64,000 nucleotides of DNA from Rhodanobacter sp. OK091 (lineage in GTDB: Bacteria; Pseudomonadota; Gammaproteobacteria; Xanthomonadales; Rhodanobacteraceae). Location of the stretch: NCBI RefSeq assembly GCF_900142825.1, contig NZ_FRCH01000004.1:62001-126000 (forward strand), given 5' to 3'. Position 1 is the stretch's first letter. Each line of letters opens with the position of its first letter. Shown piece by piece: positions 32,638 to 40,446 of the stretch. Both the position numbers and the translations under genes were made by a program. The notes beneath the pieces are model-generated. The model was given only the letters and a program-made list of their open reading frames with translations, ran no database searches and had not been told where the DNA came from.

Positions 32638-32739
32638 TCGCCTCGAACGCACGGACTGACCGGAAGCGTTACTTCGCGCACGCCATGGCCGCTGCATGGT
32701 TGTGTACCCTTGGTCGCAACGGTTTCGCCCGGGGGTACC

Positions 32740-35394
32740 TTGCCAGAGAAATCTGATTCCCATCATTCCGCGATTCCGGTGTCCTCGCCGCGCCATCTGA
32801 CGGCGCTTCTGTGGAGTCTGCTGGCGCTGCTGACAGGACTGGCCGTGACGCTGGCCGTCCATGGCCAGCAGGTGCAGGCCCGGGAAGCGGAGCGAACCTT
32901 TGTCCGCAATGAGCTTGCCAACAAGAGCTATGCGGCGCTGCAGGCGAAGTTGCATTCGGCCGAGGCGCTGCTGCGTGCCGTGCAGACGCTTTTTCTTGTC
33001 TCGGCGGAAGTCACCCCGGCGGATTTCGGCACGCTCTATCTCAACATGCGCCCGCGCGAACAATTTCCCAGCCTGCTTGCGCTGGCGTATGCGCAACGCG
33101 AGGTACGGCCCGGCGGCGAGCATTACATAACCCGTTGGGTCAATCCGCTGACGGGGAACGAGGCGGTGGCAGGGCTCGACGTCGGTGCGCAGCCCCGAAA
33201 TCTGGCTGCCCTGCTGGCTTCGCGCGACACCGATCAAGTCGCGCTTTCGGCGCCGTTCCGCCCGGTGCAGCAGGTCTCGTCCAATGCGCCGGACGACGGC
33301 ATCACGATGCGGCTGCCGATCTTCAGTCCGGGCAATCCGCCGCGCACGGTCAACGAGCGGCGCGAACGCATGCGCGGCTCGATCGCGATGTCGTTTCGAG
33401 TGAGCCACCTGATCGGCGATGCCATCCCGGAGCAGTTGATCCGCGAGCTGCATGTGCGCATTACCGACGCCAGCGATCCGATAGCGCTGCCGCTGTTCGA
33501 TTCGCATCCGGGCCCGGGCCCGGCCATCCCGGCAAGCGGCTACCGCTTCGAGCGCAGGCTCATCTATGGCGGCCGCATGTGGGACATCTCGATGCAGCCG
33601 TTGGACTCCGGTGCCACGCGGATCGCATGGAGCCAGTCCACCTTGCTCGCCGGCTCGCTGATGAGCGTATTGCTGGCGATGCTGGTTTTTTCCGTGGTCA
33701 GCACGCGCCAGCGGGCGCTCGATCTGGGTTGGCGGATGAGTCGCCGTTACCGCGAGAGCGAGGAGCGTTTTCGTGCGCTGAACGACCTTTTGCCGATGCT
33801 GGTGTTGCTGGCCGAGGTCGAGGGCGGACGGATCACCTACACAAACCGGGCTGCGCGCGATCGTCTCGGTGAACATGTGGGCGAACGGGATATGCCCGAT
33901 CTGTTCGAGGATCAGTATCTGCGTACGTGGTTGCGCAGCGCGGATACCCGCGGCTGCAGCCGGTTCGAAGCGCAGCTGCGTATCGGCGACGGTGCCAGTT
34001 TCTGGGCCAGCGTGGCGATCTCGCGGATCGTGTTGAGCGGCCGCGACAAGCTGCTGGTGGTGGCGAACGACATCAGCGAGCAACGGCAACTGACCGAGCT
34101 GCTGAGTCACCAGGCCAGCCATGATGCCTTGACCGGGCTGTACAACCGGCGCGAGTTCGAGCGCCGGCTGCAGGCTGCGCTGACGCTGACCGACAGCGAC
34201 ACACCGCCCGCGGTCCTGCTGTATCTCGACCTCGACCAGTTCAAGCTGGTCAATGACACTTCCGGCCATCTGGCCGGCGATCAGCTGCTGGCGCAGCTGG
34301 CCATCGTCGTGGGCAGGCAGCTGGCCAGCACCGACGTGCTGGCGCGTCTGGGCGGCGACGAGTTCGGTGTGTTGATCGCCGATGTGGCCGATCGCGCCGC
34401 CGCCGAAGAGATAGCCGAACGCGTGCGCCGTAGCATCGACGGCTACATATTCATCTGGGAGCGGCGCAGCTACACCGTCAGCGCCAGCATCGGCGGCGTG
34501 ATGATCGATCGTCCGGACATCCTGGTGAAGGACCTGCTCACGCAGGCCGATACCGCCTGCTACATGGCCAAGGAAGTGGGCCGCAACCGGGTGCATTTCT
34601 ATTCCGAACGCGACGACGAAACCCTGCGGCGCCACGGCGAGATGGAATGGGCCAACCGGCTGCGCTGGGCGGTCGACGAGCATCGCCTGGTGCTGATGTA
34701 CCAGGAAATCTGGCTGCTGCCGCTGACCTCCGGTGGTGAGGCCGGGATCGAGATGCTGCTGCGGTTCCGCGACGAGTCCGGTCAGTTGGTGGTGCCGGGC
34801 GTGTTCATGCCGGCGGCCGAGCGCTACGGCATGATGCCGGTGGTGGATCGCTGGGTGGTCGAAACTACGCTGGCCAACTTCGACCGCTTGCATCCGGCCG
34901 GCGCCGAGCTGCGCATGGTGGCGATCAACCTCTCCGGTGCCAGTCTCGAGGATGAGGCGCTGGCGGGGTTGATCATCCGCTGGCTGCGGCAGTATCGGGT
35001 CGAGCCGTCGAGGGTCTGCTTCGAGATCACCGAGACCGTGGCGGTGCGAAATCTGTCGCAGGTAGTTCGCTTCATGGAGCAATTGCGCGCCGCGGGCTGC
35101 CGCATTGCACTGGATGATTTCGGCGCAGGCATGTCCTCGTTCACTTATTTGAAGAACCTGCCGCTGGACATCATCAAGATCGACGGCAGCTTCGTGCGCG
35201 ACATGCTCAGTGATCCGGTCAGCCACCTGATGGTCAGGGCCGTCACCGACATCGGCCATCGGCTCGGCCTTGAAGTGGTCGCCGAATGGGTGACCGACCT
35301 GGAAACGGTGCAGGCGCTGACGGTGCTTGGAGTCAATTGCGTGCAGGGCTTCAGCCTGCACCATCCCGAACTGGCCGTGTTCCAGAGCGATTGA
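32740..35394 (+). CDS. CHASE-PAS-GGDEF-EAL cyclic-di-GMP enzyme
   Basis: This is a protein of about 884 residues. It has a TM helix (LLWSLLALLTGLAVTLAVHG), a periplasmic CHASE-type sensor to about residue 300, a second TM helix (SLMSVLLAMLVFSVVS), a PAS-like domain, then GGDEF and EAL. The cyclase motif LARLGGDEFGVL is intact, but the product-inhibition RxxD is replaced by ASTD. The EAL motif reads EMLLR, so ExLxR is kept, and NLSG, EITETV, DDFGAGMSSF, KIDGSF, AEWV and QGF retain the phosphodiesterase ligands. Both activities are possible, and extracellular signals probably set the balance. Starts at TTG 32740 or TTG 32710 are both possible; no good ATG exists. Confidence 0.9.
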   Translation: MPEKSDSHHSAIPVSSPRHLTALLWSLLALLTGLAVTLAVHGQQVQAREAERTFVRNELANKSYAALQAKLHSAEALLRAVQTLFLVSAEVTPADFGTLYLNMRPREQFPSLLALAYAQREVRPGGEHYITRWVNPLTGNEAVAGLDVGAQPRNLAALLASRDTDQVALSAPFRPVQQVSSNAPDDGITMRLPIFSPGNPPRTVNERRERMRGSIAMSFRVSHLIGDAIPEQLIRELHVRITDASDPIALPLFDSHPGPGPAIPASGYRFERRLIYGGRMWDISMQPLDSGATRIAWSQSTLLAGSLMSVLLAMLVFSVVSTRQRALDLGWRMSRRYRESEERFRALNDLLPMLVLLAEVEGGRITYTNRAARDRLGEHVGERDMPDLFEDQYLRTWLRSADTRGCSRFEAQLRIGDGASFWASVAISRIVLSGRDKLLVVANDISEQRQLTELLSHQASHDALTGLYNRREFERRLQAALTLTDSDTPPAVLLYLDLDQFKLVNDTSGHLAGDQLLAQLAIVVGRQLASTDVLARLGGDEFGVLIADVADRAAAEEIAERVRRSIDGYIFIWERRSYTVSASIGGVMIDRPDILVKDLLTQADTACYMAKEVGRNRVHFYSERDDETLRRHGEMEWANRLRWAVDEHRLVLMYQEIWLLPLTSGGEAGIEMLLRFRDESGQLVVPGVFMPAAERYGMMPVVDRWVVETTLANFDRLHPAGAELRMVAINLSGASLEDEALAGLIIRWLRQYRVEPSRVCFEITETVAVRNLSQVVRFMEQLRAAGCRIALDDFGAGMSSFTYLKNLPLDIIKIDGSFVRDMLSDPVSHLMVRAVTDIGHRLGLEVVAEWVTDLETVQALTVLGVNCVQGFSLHHPELAVFQSD

Positions 35395-36176: not shown

Positions 36177-36428
36177 CGTTGTCTACGGGTGTGCGGAGAG
36201 AAATGGACGTCCAGGCGTCCATATGCGGAAAAGCTCGTTACGTATTTATTCGCACGTAATCGTTTTCTTTTTTCCGGATATAGATCCATCGCGCCGTACA
36301 TTAATGTTTGGAAGCATCAGCAGCATTAATTATTAAATCGCAAGATTTTAAAGAAAGATACGCAAAATAATGCGCAAATCAGGCAATTACTAAAATTGCG
36401 ACCGTAATCACATAGGATTAATTCCGGG
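36177..36428. other. AT-rich region upstream of the first secreted-protein unit
   Basis: This stretch is strikingly AT-rich for this genome, with runs such as TTTTCTTTTTT and ATTAATTATTAAATCG and no gene. It immediately precedes the promoter at 36429. A comparable AT-rich stretch (about 38700-38880) precedes the second unit and shares short words (ATCGCAAGAT, TAATGT). It may hold UP-elements or sites for nucleoid-associated or transcription factors. Confidence 0.5.
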
Positions 36429-36457
36429 TTGACACCCACTACCCGCACCACTAGTTT
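36429..36457 (+). promoter_or_regulatory. Sigma70-like promoter, copy A
   Basis: A perfect -35 TTGACA (36429-36434) is followed after 17 bp by TAGTTT (36452-36457) as a weak -10. The same pair is conserved in copy B (38884-38913) with an 18-bp spacer, which supports it as the promoter of the duplicated unit. Confidence 0.55.
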
Positions 36458-36714
36458 CCACCCGTCCGTCGTGGGGATACATCAGGCGGATGGTTCCGTA
36501 ACAGCATATGGATCGGGGGATCCATGCGCCGTTCAAGCAGTGGCTCGATGCCGTCCTCTAGGCAAGACAGGGGGAGCGACGGTTCACCGGGTATCGCGGA
36601 ATCGCAAGGCAATTGATCGAAATACCAGAGTCGTGCGAGGGCGCGACATGTCATTGCCACGGGGTCTGGGCGGCCGTGTTAGGCCCGCTCGTCCTCATTT
36701 CGGGGAACACATTC
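36458..36714 (+). promoter_or_regulatory. Conserved structured 5' leader, copy A
   Basis: This leader of about 257 nt precedes the PKD-containing secreted protein and is highly similar to 38914-39173 upstream of the paralogue. Visible stems are GGATC/GATCC with a GGGG loop (36510-36523), CCGTC (36551-36555) with GACGG (36578-36582), and GTCGTGC (36630-36636) with GCGCGAC (36641-36647) around a GAGG loop. Substitutions between the copies keep these stems paired. Two small open frames, 36524-36616 (30 codons) and 36648-36725 (25 codons, overlapping the main start), are also present in copy B. It may be a cis-regulatory RNA (riboswitch, thermosensor or translational control); no known class matched. 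Confidence 0.6.
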
Positions 36715-38547
36715 ATGAAGCATAAGTTTTTATTGAGCACTCTTGCAGCTTGCACGTTGCTCGGCATTGCCGCAGCGCCGGTGTCCGCTTCGGAGACCAA
36801 CCCGTATTCGCCGGCCAACGGCCACGCCTATCGTCACGGTGTGCTGCCGACCCGCGATGTATTGAACAAGATGAACCATTGGAAGGCCCAGCACGCGCTG
36901 ACCTCACAGACGGCGGCCACCGGCATCGAAACGCTGAGCTACGGCGGTGCCCTGGACAGCGTGGGTGTGATGAGCGGCAAGGTGAAGGTCTACGTCGTGT
37001 ACTACGGCACCCAGTGGGGCACGCGCTCGACCAATAGCTCGGGCGACTCCGTGTTCACTGGCGACTCCAGTGGGGCCGCGGCGAAGGCCGAGGAAATGTT
37101 CAAGGGTATCGGTACCAACAGCGAACTGTGGTCGGCCGACCTGACCCAGTGGTGCGACGGTCCCAATGTCACCAGCGGCGCCACCAGCTGCCCGTCGAAC
37201 GCCAACTTCGTGCCTTACCAGAGCGGCGGCACGCTTGCCGGCGTCTGGTACGACAACACCAAAGCGTCGCCCGCCACCGCCACGCAAGCCCAGTTGGCTG
37301 CCGAGGCGGTTTCCGCCGCGGCTCACTTCGGCAACACCGCGGCGGGTTCGAACCGCTACACCTACTACATCATCATGTCGCCGCACGGCACCAACCCGGA
37401 CAGCTACCAGGGTTCGTACTGCGCATGGCATGACTACACCACTTCGTCCTATGGCGATATCGCGTACAGCAACCAGCCGTACAACATTGATTCGGGCCAG
37501 GGCTGCGGCGTGAACTTCGTCAACTCGGGCAGCGCCGGTACGCTGGATGGCTGGACCATGACACTCGGCCACGAGTGGCACGAAATGATGTCGGATACGT
37601 ATCCGGCAGGCGGCTGGACCAACCATACCGGCAATGCGACCTACAACGGCCAGGAAAACTCCGACGAGTGCGCCTGGATCGCGGCGGGTTCACCCGGCGG
37701 TGCGGCCAACATCACGTTCGCCACCGGCACGTTTACCGAGCAGGCCAGCTGGTCCAACGACACCAACGCTTGTGCGATCTCGCACCCGATCGTGGGTGGT
37801 GGCACCGGTGGCGGCACGCCGGTCGCGAACTTCACTGACACGATCAGCGGCTTGACGGTGAACTTCACCGACAGCTCCACCGATACCGGCGGTACCATTT
37901 CGTCGCATGCGTGGACGTTCGGCGACGGCGGCACTTCGACGGCCACCAGCCCGAGCCACACCTATGCGGCAGCCGGCACCTACAGCGTGACCGAAACGGT
38001 GACCGACAGCGTCAGCGGCGCGACCAACTCCAAGACGGCATCGGTGACGGTCTCCGGCGGTGGTGGTGGTTCGTCGCAGTTGCTCGGCAACACCGGCTTC
38101 GAAAGCGGCACTGCCTCGCCGTGGTCGATGAGCTCCGGCGTGCTGTGCAGCAACAGCACCTGCTCGGGCGAAGTCGCCCATGCCGGCACCTGGTTCGCAT
38201 GGCTGGATGGCTACGGTTCTGCGCACACCGATACGGTGTCGCAGTCGGTGGCTATTCCGAGCGGCAAGACCTCGGCCACTCTGTCGTACGCTCTGCATAT
38301 CGACACAGCAGAGACCGGCTCGACGGCGTATGACAAGTTGAACGTGCAGGTCCTGAACAGCTCGGGCACCGTGCTCGCGACCTTGGCGACCTACTCGAAC
38401 GTCAACGCCGCCAGTGGTTACACCGTGCATACCGCGAACCTTGCCGCGTACATCGGCCAGACGGTGACGATCAAGTTCACTGGTACGGAAGATTCGTCGC
38501 TGCAGACCTCGTTCGTGCTGGACGATGTCACGCTGACCGTGCAGTAA
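36715..38547 (+). CDS. Secreted HExxE protein with PKD and C-terminal beta domain
   Basis: This is a 610-residue exported protein. A signal peptide ([20 protein letters not shown]) is followed by a domain of about 340 residues with the metal-site-like motif [18 protein letters not shown] (HExxE), plus paired Cys (QWCDGPN, TSCPSN, SYCAWHD, GCGVNF). Next comes a Gly-rich linker, a PKD domain (about 365-450; [20 protein letters not shown]) and a carbohydrate-binding/MAM-like beta sandwich (about 460-610; [14 protein letters not shown]). The N-terminal domain recalls EXORDIUM/phosphate-induced-like and peptidase-like secreted proteins. Protease activity is inferred from the motif only. It is probably exported by the type II system. 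The next unit is its shorter paralogue. Confidence 0.8.
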
Positions 38548-38556
38548 GCCACACCG

Positions 38557-38583
38557 ACGGCAGCGGCCTCGCGCGGCTGCCGT
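38557..38583 (+). terminator. Hairpin after the PKD-containing gene
   Basis: An 8-bp stem (ACGGCAGC/GCTGCCGT) starts 9 bp after the stop codon. A related, longer GC-rich hairpin follows the paralogue at 40335-40363. Confidence 0.5.
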
Positions 38584-38646
38584 CAACGGTTCAGGGATCA
38601 GGGATGCGCAAGTCGCGTCTCCGGTTTCGACCAAGGAAGTACTCCG

Positions 38647-38675
38647 GCCCGATCGGCAACGATCGGGCTTTTTTT
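38647..38675 (+). terminator. Strong rho-independent terminator, copy A
   Basis: A 9-bp stem GCCCGATCG/CGATCGGGC with a GCAA tetraloop is followed by seven T. The identical hairpin occurs at 40420-40446 after the paralogue, so the terminator belongs to the duplicated unit. Confidence 0.9.
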
Positions 38676-38883
38676 GCGCGTGTGCTGCAGCGACAGAAGC
38701 AGGCCGACAGGCGTAGACAGGGATAAGAATTCTTCTACCGTCGGATAATCTGAGGATTGACGAATGCAGTAGATCGATTCGCTAGCACGCATTAATGTGT
38801 TGATTCGATTTTATCGCAAGATAATACGATTTGCGCAATGTCACATTATCTGTGTTCCGTAATCGTCTAGGACTAATTCCAGG

Positions 38884-38913
38884 TTGACAGCCATTACCAA
38901 ACGCCACTAGTTT
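38884..38913 (+). promoter_or_regulatory. Sigma70-like promoter, copy B
   Basis: A perfect -35 TTGACA (38884-38889) and TAGTTT (38908-38913) are separated by 18 bp, matching copy A at 36429-36457. The preceding CTAATTCCAGG is also shared. Confidence 0.55.
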
Positions 38914-39173
38914 CCACCGGTCCGTCGCGGGGAAACATGGGGCGGATGGTTCCGTAGCGGCGTCGTGGATCGGGGGATCCATGCGCCGTTCAAGCAATGA
39001 CTCGACACTGTCCTCTAGGCAAGACAGGGGGAGTGATGGTTTATCGGGTATCGCGGAATCGCAAGGCAAATGATTGAACTACGAGAGTCGTGCGAGGGGC
39101 ACGACATGTCATTGCCACGAGGTCTGGGCGGCCGTTTTAGGTCCGCTCGTCCTCATTTCGGGGAAATCAATTC
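38914..39173 (+). promoter_or_regulatory. Conserved structured 5' leader, copy B
   Basis: This is the second copy of the leader of about 260 nt. Stem changes relative to copy A are structure-preserving: CTGTC (39008-39012) with GATGG (39035-39039) replaces two Watson-Crick pairs by wobbles, and GTCGTGC/GCACGAC (39087-39105) has a T-A pair where copy A has T.G. The small frames 38981-39073 (30 codons, same length as copy A) and 39106-39177 (23 codons, overlapping the main ATG) are kept. In the first frame most differences change the amino acid, which favours selection on RNA rather than on the peptide. Confidence 0.6.
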
Positions 39174-40247
39174 ATGAAGTCCAATTTTCTGTTGAACACT
39201 GTTGCCGCCTGCGCCTTGCTCGGCTTTGCCGCCGCGCCGGCGTTCGCTTCAACTTCGGAGACCAACCCGTATTCGCCGGCCAACGGTCACGCGTACCGTC
39301 ACGGTGTGCTGCCGACCCGCGACGTGCTGAACCAGATGAACCACTGGACGGCTTCGCATGCGGTTACCGCGGTCAATGCGCTTACCGGTGCGAACACGCT
39401 GATCTACGGTGGCGGCACCAGCGGCGTGGGCGTGATGGACAGCCACGTGAAGGTCTACATCGTGTACTACGGCAACCAGTGGGGCACGCGCACCACCAAT
39501 GCCAAGGGCGACTCCGTGTTCACCGGCGACGCCGACGGCGCCGCGGCGGTGGCTGAGGAAATGTTCAAGGGGATCGGTACCGGCAGCGAGCTGTGGTCGG
39601 CGGATCTGACCCAGTGGTGCGACGGCCCCAACGTCGCCACGGGCGCGACCAGCTGCCCGTCGACTGCCAGCTTCGTGCCGTACCAGACCGGCGGAACCCT
39701 GGCCGGCGTGTGGTACGACAACTCCAAGGCCTCGCCTCGCGCCGCCACGCAAGCCCAGTTGGCTGCCGAAGCGGTCGCTGCCGCGGCGCACTTCGGCAAC
39801 ACCGCGCCAGGCTCGAACCGCTACACCTACTACATCATCGCGTCGCCGCACGGCACCAACCCGGACAGGTACCAGCGTCAATACTGCGCATGGCACGACT
39901 ACACCACCTCGTCCTACGGCAACCTCGCATACAGCAATCAGCCGTACAACATGGACTCCGGCGCCGGCTGCGGTGTGAACTTCGTCAACTCGGGCAGCGC
40001 CGGTACGCTGGACGGCTGGACCATGACGCTCGGTCACGAGTGGCACGAAATGATGTCGGATACGTATCCGGCCGGTGGCTGGACCGCCAGCAGCGGCCAG
40101 GAAAACTCCGATGAGTGCGCCTGGATCGCGGCGGGCTCACCCGGCGGTGCGGCCAACATCACGATGGGCACCGGCACGTTCACCGAGCAGGCCAGCTGGT
40201 CCAACGACACCAACTCGTGCGCGATCTCGCACGCGATACTCCACTAA
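39174..40247 (+). CDS. Secreted HExxE protein, short paralogue
   Basis: This is a 357-residue exported protein nearly colinear with the N-terminal 340 residues of the protein at 36715-38547. It has the signal peptide (LNTVAACALLGFAAAPAFAS), [20 protein letters not shown], the HExxE motif [38 protein letters not shown] and the end segment SWSNDTNSCAISHAILH, where it stops instead of entering a PKD domain. The tandem copy includes promoter, leader and terminator. It therefore defines the minimal catalytic or binding unit of the family. Function as for its neighbour; a secreted hydrolase role is inferred. Confidence 0.8.
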   Translation: MKSNFLLNTVAACALLGFAAAPAFASTSETNPYSPANGHAYRHGVLPTRDVLNQMNHWTASHAVTAVNALTGANTLIYGGGTSGVGVMDSHVKVYIVYYGNQWGTRTTNAKGDSVFTGDADGAAAVAEEMFKGIGTGSELWSADLTQWCDGPNVATGATSCPSTASFVPYQTGGTLAGVWYDNSKASPRAATQAQLAAEAVAAAAHFGNTAPGSNRYTYYIIASPHGTNPDRYQRQYCAWHDYTTSSYGNLAYSNQPYNMDSGAGCGVNFVNSGSAGTLDGWTMTLGHEWHEMMSDTYPAGGWTASSGQENSDECAWIAAGSPGGAANITMGTGTFTEQASWSNDTNSCAISHAILH

Positions 40248-40363: not shown

Positions 40364-40419
40364 TCGGTTATTCGAAATGCCCAGAACCGCATCTCAGGTT
40401 TCACAGCAGAAATCCTCCG

Positions 40420-40446
40420 GCCCGATCGGCAACGATCGGGCTTTTT
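40420..40446 (+). terminator. Strong rho-independent terminator, copy B
   Basis: This has the same GCCCGATCG-GCAA-CGATCGGGC hairpin as 38647-38675, followed by five T. It closes the second copy of the duplicated unit. Confidence 0.9.

Follow-up and report, generated by a model that had tools for sequence, protein, structure and literature searches.

The window analysed here is a stretch of 64,000 nucleotides (nt) from Rhodanobacter sp. OK091 (NCBI RefSeq assembly GCF_900142825.1, contig NZ_FRCH01000004.1, positions 62,001 to 126,000 of the forward strand), and the subject of this study is a long leader RNA that precedes two genes for secreted proteins in it. These genes lie in two head-to-tail units, each composed of a promoter, a leader about 250 nt long, a secreted-protein gene and an intrinsic terminator. 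The leader was traced with two covariance models, R1 for its 3' half (ten seed sequences) and R2 for its 5' half (thirty chosen sequences). The units contain the following features:

36429 to 36457, + strand: promoter of copy 1, read by eye (TTGACA at 36429-36434, 17 nt, TAGTTT at 36452-36457)
36462 to 36714, + strand: structured leader RNA, copy 1, from its probable transcription start (R2 match 36462-36605, R1 match 36598-36717)
36702 to 36706, + strand: Shine-Dalgarno (SD) sequence GGGGA of gene 1, read directly
36715 to 38547, + strand: gene 1, secreted protein of 610 residues with a PKD domain (translation, domain search)
38646 to 38669, + strand: intrinsic terminator 3' of gene 1, its 24 bases identical to 40419-40442
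38884 to 38913, + strand: promoter of copy 2, read by eye (TTGACA at 38884-38889, 18 nt, TAGTTT at 38908-38913)
38918 to 39173, + strand: structured leader RNA, copy 2 (R2 match 38918-39062, R1 match 39055-39176)
39174 to 40247, + strand: gene 2, secreted protein of 357 residues from the gene 1 family, with no Pfam, NCBIfam or PDB match by sequence
40419 to 40442, + strand: intrinsic terminator 3' of gene 2

As the first-pass annotation of this DNA had claimed, two leaders of about 250 nt are present at 36458-36714 and 38914-39173; their identity is 89% in an alignment covering 273 of the 291 query bases, and the proteins of genes 1 and 2 are 83% identical (alignment A8). The annotation opened the region at 36429, which is a real coordinate of the -35 hexamer and not the start of the RNA; for that reason the transcription start of copy 1 is placed further on, probably near 36462. 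A promoter layout resembling that of the window recurs in homologues, and a strict consensus scan reported no promoter-like site for either unit. A box like TAGGAnnAAnTC was seen at 36413-36425, just 5' of the -35 hexamer, and by eye a similar box is present in a number of the M4 and S53 peptidase units described below. From its sequence, it is perhaps a common transcription-factor site.

Comparison of homologous leaders gave a 5' domain made of P1 and of a long-range helix P2 that surrounds P3 and P4. Its elements, in coordinates of copy 1, are:

36464-36470 with 36485-36491, + strand: P1, a hairpin with GGGGA in its loop (covariation; E=0.33 for its best pair by the phylogeny null described below)
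36492-36498 with 36597-36603, + strand: P2, GGTTCCG/CGGAATC, long-range helix closing the 5' domain (E=0.70)
36500-36506 with 36527-36533, + strand: P3, model stem, changed on both sides in 7 of 7 pairs (best pair E=0.20)
36508-36514 with 36519-36525, + strand: top of P3, ATGGATC/GATCCAT
36545-36547 with 36588-36590, + strand: P4a, one pair being CG in 41 and GC in 27 of 78 sequences (E=0.05)
36551-36554 with 36579-36582, + strand: P4
36568-36576, + strand: conserved CAGGGGGAG in the P4 arm

The loops of this domain are G-rich and conserved. The P3 model stem has two A-C mismatches in copy 1 and is fully paired in copy 2, and one P2 pair is CG in 40, UA in 31 and UG in 6 of 78 sequences. In a 30-sequence MAFFT alignment (A7), 96.6% of the cells are paired and 14 of 29 pairs show changes on both sides, with a score of 0.416 against 0.285 after shuffling (0 of 500 shuffles reach it) and at most 0.179 when the structure was slid. 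In 79 sequences aligned to the covariance model (A9), 95.7% of the cells are paired, 23 of 29 pairs are changed on both sides, and a score of 0.443 compares with 0.267 shuffled (again 0 of 500), slid versions giving at most 0.165. Because shuffles ignore relatedness, we added a null that preserves the phylogeny, in which the substitutions of each column are replayed on the tree. Under this null the top six of the 8128 column pairs of A9 (at least 3 apart) are all structural, belonging to P4a, P3, P1, P4 and P2, with expectation values (E) of 0.05, 0.20, 0.33, 0.62, 0.70 and 2.2. Covariation, which the first-pass annotation had named as a test and whose absence it would have counted against its proposal, is strong. 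The stem-preserving changes that it had read from the two copies are also real: CCGTC/GACGG becomes CTGTC/GATGG in P4, and in P5, a helix of the 3' domain, GTCGTGC pairs with GCGCGAC or GCACGAC.

The 3' domain adjoins the ribosome-binding site and contains two alternative pairings:

36608-36612 with 36654-36658, + strand: P6, GGCAA/TTGCC, enclosing P5 (weaker, 86.9% paired)
36630-36636 with 36641-36647, + strand: P5, hairpin inside P6, changed on both sides in 7 of 7 pairs (97.1% paired)
36659-36661 and 36663-36666 with 36672-36675 and 36677-36679, + strand: hairpin A, alternative to P7/P8 (94.7% of cells paired)
36662-36664 with 36693-36695, + strand: P7, surrounding P8 at 36670-36675 with 36682-36688, one bulge (95.1% of cells paired)

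Changes on both sides were found in 15 of the 22 pairs of this domain, whose score of 0.314 compares with 0.200 shuffled (0 of 500 reach it), and three P5 pairs have E=0.000, 0.13 and 0.20 under the phylogeny null. Hairpin A uses strands of both P7 and P8, so that the two pairings are mutually exclusive, and none of 500 shuffles reached the covariation score of either. A column pair outside the model, 63-81, ranks second on alignment A5 (UA 72, CG 16; E=0.10) and is part of hairpin A. These comparisons provide moderate evidence that two exclusive 3' folds are conserved near the ribosome-binding site. As for the claim of a Shine-Dalgarno-like GAGG in the loop of the last hairpin, it did not hold beyond the window, the P5 loop being different among more distant copies.

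Several results weigh against the structural reading. The A7 structure was derived from A7 itself, and alignments A5 and A9 were fitted to covariance models, which favours them. Under the phylogeny null only one pair per domain reaches E ≤ 0.05, and the top 40 pairs of A9 include 11 of the 29 structural ones. On an unfitted MAFFT alignment of the 5' domain the best structural pair had E=0.57 and was outranked by a pair from the promoter region (the first 5'-domain alignment, unfitted, held 104 of 114 match rows, ten listed ids being left out). In the alternative 3' pairings, the pairs changed on both sides number 2 for hairpin A, where shuffles average 1.1 and 65 of 500 reach the value, and 2 for P7/P8 (1.4 shuffled, 202 of 500); further pair types are also unexceptional, being reached by 486 and 500 of 500 shuffles, respectively. 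The pair 69-79 could instead belong to a pseudoknot, which would be sterically hard since no linker remains. Finally, single-sequence folds are not unusually stable (z-scores of -1.4, -2.6 and -1.6), and the case for structure therefore rests on comparison.

Coding offers another way to explain a conserved leader. The first-pass annotation had described a 30-codon frame, which is indeed present in both copies with 9 changed codons, and a second small frame that overlaps the ATG of the main gene; translation of either could govern the gene. In the two copies of the window neither frame is interrupted, and the second is likewise open in L092, L003, L004 and L009, four of the five near relatives, the exception being L090. 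However, the first is missing in four of these five and shortened in the fifth, the second is not kept in the distant copies examined, neither peptide sequence occurs in any of nine more distant copies, and 7 of the 9 codon changes are nonsynonymous. Since neither small frame is conserved, we rejected a coding explanation of the leader, and control by a leader peptide, already disfavoured, appears very improbable.

To place the leader RNA among genomes, blastn and the two models were used. With blastn a full-length leader was found in two more genomes, and shorter pieces upstream of another kind of gene; locus L006 was dropped as an apparent chance match within coding sequence, judged from its sequence. 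The R1 model gave 113 matches in 81 of the 233 genomes of the window's family, Rhodanobacteraceae, in 13 of 26 genera (113 and not 114, as locus L015 repeats L114 and was counted once), and R2 matched in 92 of the 233 genomes and 14 of the 26 genera, with one to four copies per leader-positive genome. The halves co-occur: on the 93 sources of R1 matches that were scanned, R2 has 79 matches, with one locus counted twice. From the R2 matches absent from the R1 list, 40 loci were fetched and some others left unfetched. Because R1, with its threshold relaxed to an E of 0.05, gives 20 matches on these 40 loci, the sequences suggest that the 3' half either changes more rapidly or is hard to reach with a ten-seed model. 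In the order sample, R1 was positive in 46 of 398 and R2 in 44 of 328 genomes, all listed positives lying within Rhodanobacteraceae; in the class sample one of 303 genomes was positive, the window's own, and in the phylum sample two of 299, both Rhodanobacteraceae. Searches over 40 genomes were run with Infernal's stricter filters, at which weak matches are lost, and the absence outside the family holds at that sensitivity and for those samples. The covariance-model search that the first-pass annotation had proposed thus found the leader in a single family among the sampled taxa. No leader was detected by R1 at E ≤ 1 at the loci of six actinobacterial relatives of the window's proteins, nor at loci L016, L027, L035, L047, L063 and L087.

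No known RNA family accounts for these leaders. Over the whole window, Rfam 15 placed no family at its gathering score on them, its sole match being ZMP-ZTP at 1626-1707; a permissive scan of 36200-39200 gave sub-threshold matches only, all outside the leaders, and the same scan of 20 diverse loci only microRNA matches far below cut-off. The motifs of 224 candidate structured RNAs surveyed in 2017 are said to be included in Rfam. In the part of the open-licence literature that was accessible, we found no description of the leader RNA.

The genes downstream fall into three unrelated families of secreted proteins. We called S53 peptidases by their pro-kumamolisin domain, M4 peptidases by Peptidase_M4, and the family of genes 1 and 2, here termed window-type, by sequence. 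A classified secreted protein follows 106 of the 113 R1 matches (55 S53, 33 M4 and 18 window-type). At L097, L114 and L125 the leader stands upstream of short decayed frames, beyond which a window-type gene follows; at L183 the contig ends after an M4-type start; and L186, L194 and L197, where the expected secreted-protein gene is missing, are probably false matches. The 40 further loci from R2 matches add 21 S53, 14 M4 and 5 window-type genes, two of the last, compared directly, showing 47-49% identity. At L015 (1894-2009), the repeat of L114, and at L017 (2083-2197) and L014 (1-105), the leader and a decayed short frame precede an intact window-type gene that has no leader of its own.

In 20 genomes chosen by hand, all leader-positive, 36 leaders (R1 or R2 matches at E ≤ 0.001) could be typed as 16 S53, 12 M4 and 8 others. 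The first-pass annotation had named homologues without a leader as evidence that would count against its proposal, and these exist in part: the leader is present on 16 of 86 S53 and 12 of 24 M4 genes of these genomes and absent from 70 and 12, respectively, as well as from the six actinobacterial relatives. Given these many leaderless genes, it marks a subset of its target families.

Genes 1 and 2 resist assignment. Their proteins have no Pfam match except PKD in gene 1 and no NCBIfam match above cut-off; by sequence, the window-type protein has no PDB match at E ≤ 1, and its AlphaFold model, which is poor (mean predicted local distance difference test score of 51.5), gave no PDB match at E ≤ 0.001. 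The family has a conserved GHE..E...D...AGGW motif and several cysteines and is shared with actinobacteria; relatives of the gene 2 protein were found in Rhodanobacter and allied records, Streptacidiphilus, Streptomyces and other actinobacteria. Since they have a control element in common with S53 and M4 peptidases, the window-type proteins are probably secreted hydrolases.

A signal-peptide start common to M4 (31) and S53 (53) proteins, picked by motif, has a mean identity of 35% over 20 residues and up to 90%, falling to 7-8% beyond residue 40. For this reason leader and signal-peptide start seem, from their sequences, to have moved as a cassette. Such sharing between unrelated genes, together with the tandem duplication of the whole promoter-leader-gene-terminator unit in the window, would also fit a recent duplication or transfer of the upstream region without any RNA function. 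Compensatory changes are unexpected without selection on pairing, however, and they come from a set drawn from R1 matches that span half of the family's genera; this explanation, likewise disfavoured already, we find hardly credible. We are highly confident that the leader is a conserved structured RNA whose role is tied to secreted-protein genes. The proposal of a new cis-regulatory RNA made in the first-pass annotation gains support from the compensatory changes, the three unrelated target families and the lack of an Rfam match.

How such an RNA might act was examined at the ribosome-binding site. Terminator-like sites on the + strand, scanned for in the window copies, occur in neither leader and only 3' of each gene, which makes translation the likelier level of control. 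In the hairpin-A state the SD is 0.34 unpaired against 0.32 with a shuffled tail (89 leaders), and sequestration is not specifically supported by this comparison. A specific SD-sequestering stem formed with the freed tail was rejected, being not above the composition control, and, taken as a general feature of the leaders, pairing between the 5' strand of P6 and the SD region is weak (at least 6 contiguous pairs in 49 of 110 leaders, against 27-44 of 110 in five shuffles). In 23 of 110 leaders, mostly of the M4 type (e.g., L108, L118, L130 and L131), CTAGAC(A) after GGGATCG complements (T)GTCTAG at the SD (AGGAG), a pairing that may possibly form a long-range lock on the ribosome site.

The G-rich loops and the SD could be protein sites rather than parts of a switch. 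If the leader were controlled by CsrA/RsmA, the GGA and GGGGA loops in P1, P3 and P4 and the SD would bind the protein, the structure would only present them, and the protein, not a ligand, would repress or protect the mRNA. The genome has a csrA gene, exoenzymes of related bacteria are under the control of RsmA, and the leader resembles CsrA/RsmA-bound leaders in having GGA motifs in loops (a placement read by eye) and at the SD. Over 103 leaders, the count per leader is 2.11 for GGGGA (0.66 in dinucleotide shuffles), 6.62 for GGA (5.51) and 1.76 for A.GGA (1.08), the excess of GGGGA being clear. That of GGA is small, however; CsrA is widespread whereas the leader is confined to one family in the samples, and CsrA leaders need no long-range P2, P4 arm or alternative 3' pairings, the conserved architecture here being much larger and held by long-range helices. 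We consider control by CsrA unlikely, although it deserves attention.

A passive or general device would require neither ligand nor specific protein: the leader might stabilise the mRNA, serve as a ribosome standby site, or respond to temperature or Mg2+. Long structured 5' untranslated regions (UTRs) can stabilise mRNA, SD-like G-runs recur in the leaders, and some S53-type leaders have by eye a small self-complementary stretch at the SD. Conserved loops, long-range pairs and the restriction of the leader to some of the homologous genes point instead to specific recognition, and a passive role strikes us as quite improbable.

We lean slightly towards the view, drawn from the sequences, that the leader is a switch acting at the level of translation and that its 5' domain does the sensing. 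According to this model, each leader would act in cis as a structured regulatory RNA, about 250 nt long and running from the promoter to the ATG of one secreted-protein gene. Its 5' domain (P1, and P2 around P3 and P4) would be the sensor, the state of which would select hairpin A or P7/P8, and this choice would alter the access of ribosomes to the SD sequence. One switch would thereby set the output of the leader-bearing S53, M4 and window-type proteins in answer to one common signal, perhaps a product of protein digestion. A small molecule connected with the digestion of proteins is suggested tentatively as the thing sensed; equally tentative is the fuller proposal of a new riboswitch class, so far limited to Rhodanobacteraceae, that senses an amino acid, a peptide or another digestion product and sets exoprotease output at translation.

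A conserved structured domain in the 5' UTR, as expected of a riboswitch, was found. Like orphan riboswitch candidates, the leader combines this position with a multi-helix domain closed over a long range, conserved loops, candidate alternative pairings adjoining the ribosome-binding site and one to four copies per positive genome. Unlike them, it is confined to one family in the samples searched, which counts against the switch model, and has no Rfam match. The genes served by known riboswitch classes belong mostly to metabolism, transport or stress responses, whereas the classified targets of this leader are secreted peptidases and window-type secreted proteins. The matching of protease secretion to need in bacteria is usually attributed to transcription factors; here, a single RNA apparently unites secreted proteins of three unrelated families in one regulon. 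If the riboswitch proposal is true, the RNA would provide direct feedback on digestion outside the cell, across unrelated exoprotease families. The R1 and R2 models make a search for the ligand or protein directly possible.

At L161, L170, L185 and L198 (also L147 and L150), which have S53-type genes downstream, the 3' domain matches and the 5' domain looks different. As judged from the sequences, this is perhaps an exchanged sensor domain, which, if real, would offer a good way to approach the signal. At L093, also upstream of an S53 gene, the 3' domain is well preserved and the 5' domain apparently degenerate.

Two other features of the window were noted. A CHASE-GGDEF-EAL gene lies at 32710-35394, upstream of both units, with no sign of a link to the leader, none having been tested for. 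The ZMP/ZTP riboswitch at 1626-1707 is on the minus strand and scores 62 bits, above its gathering score.

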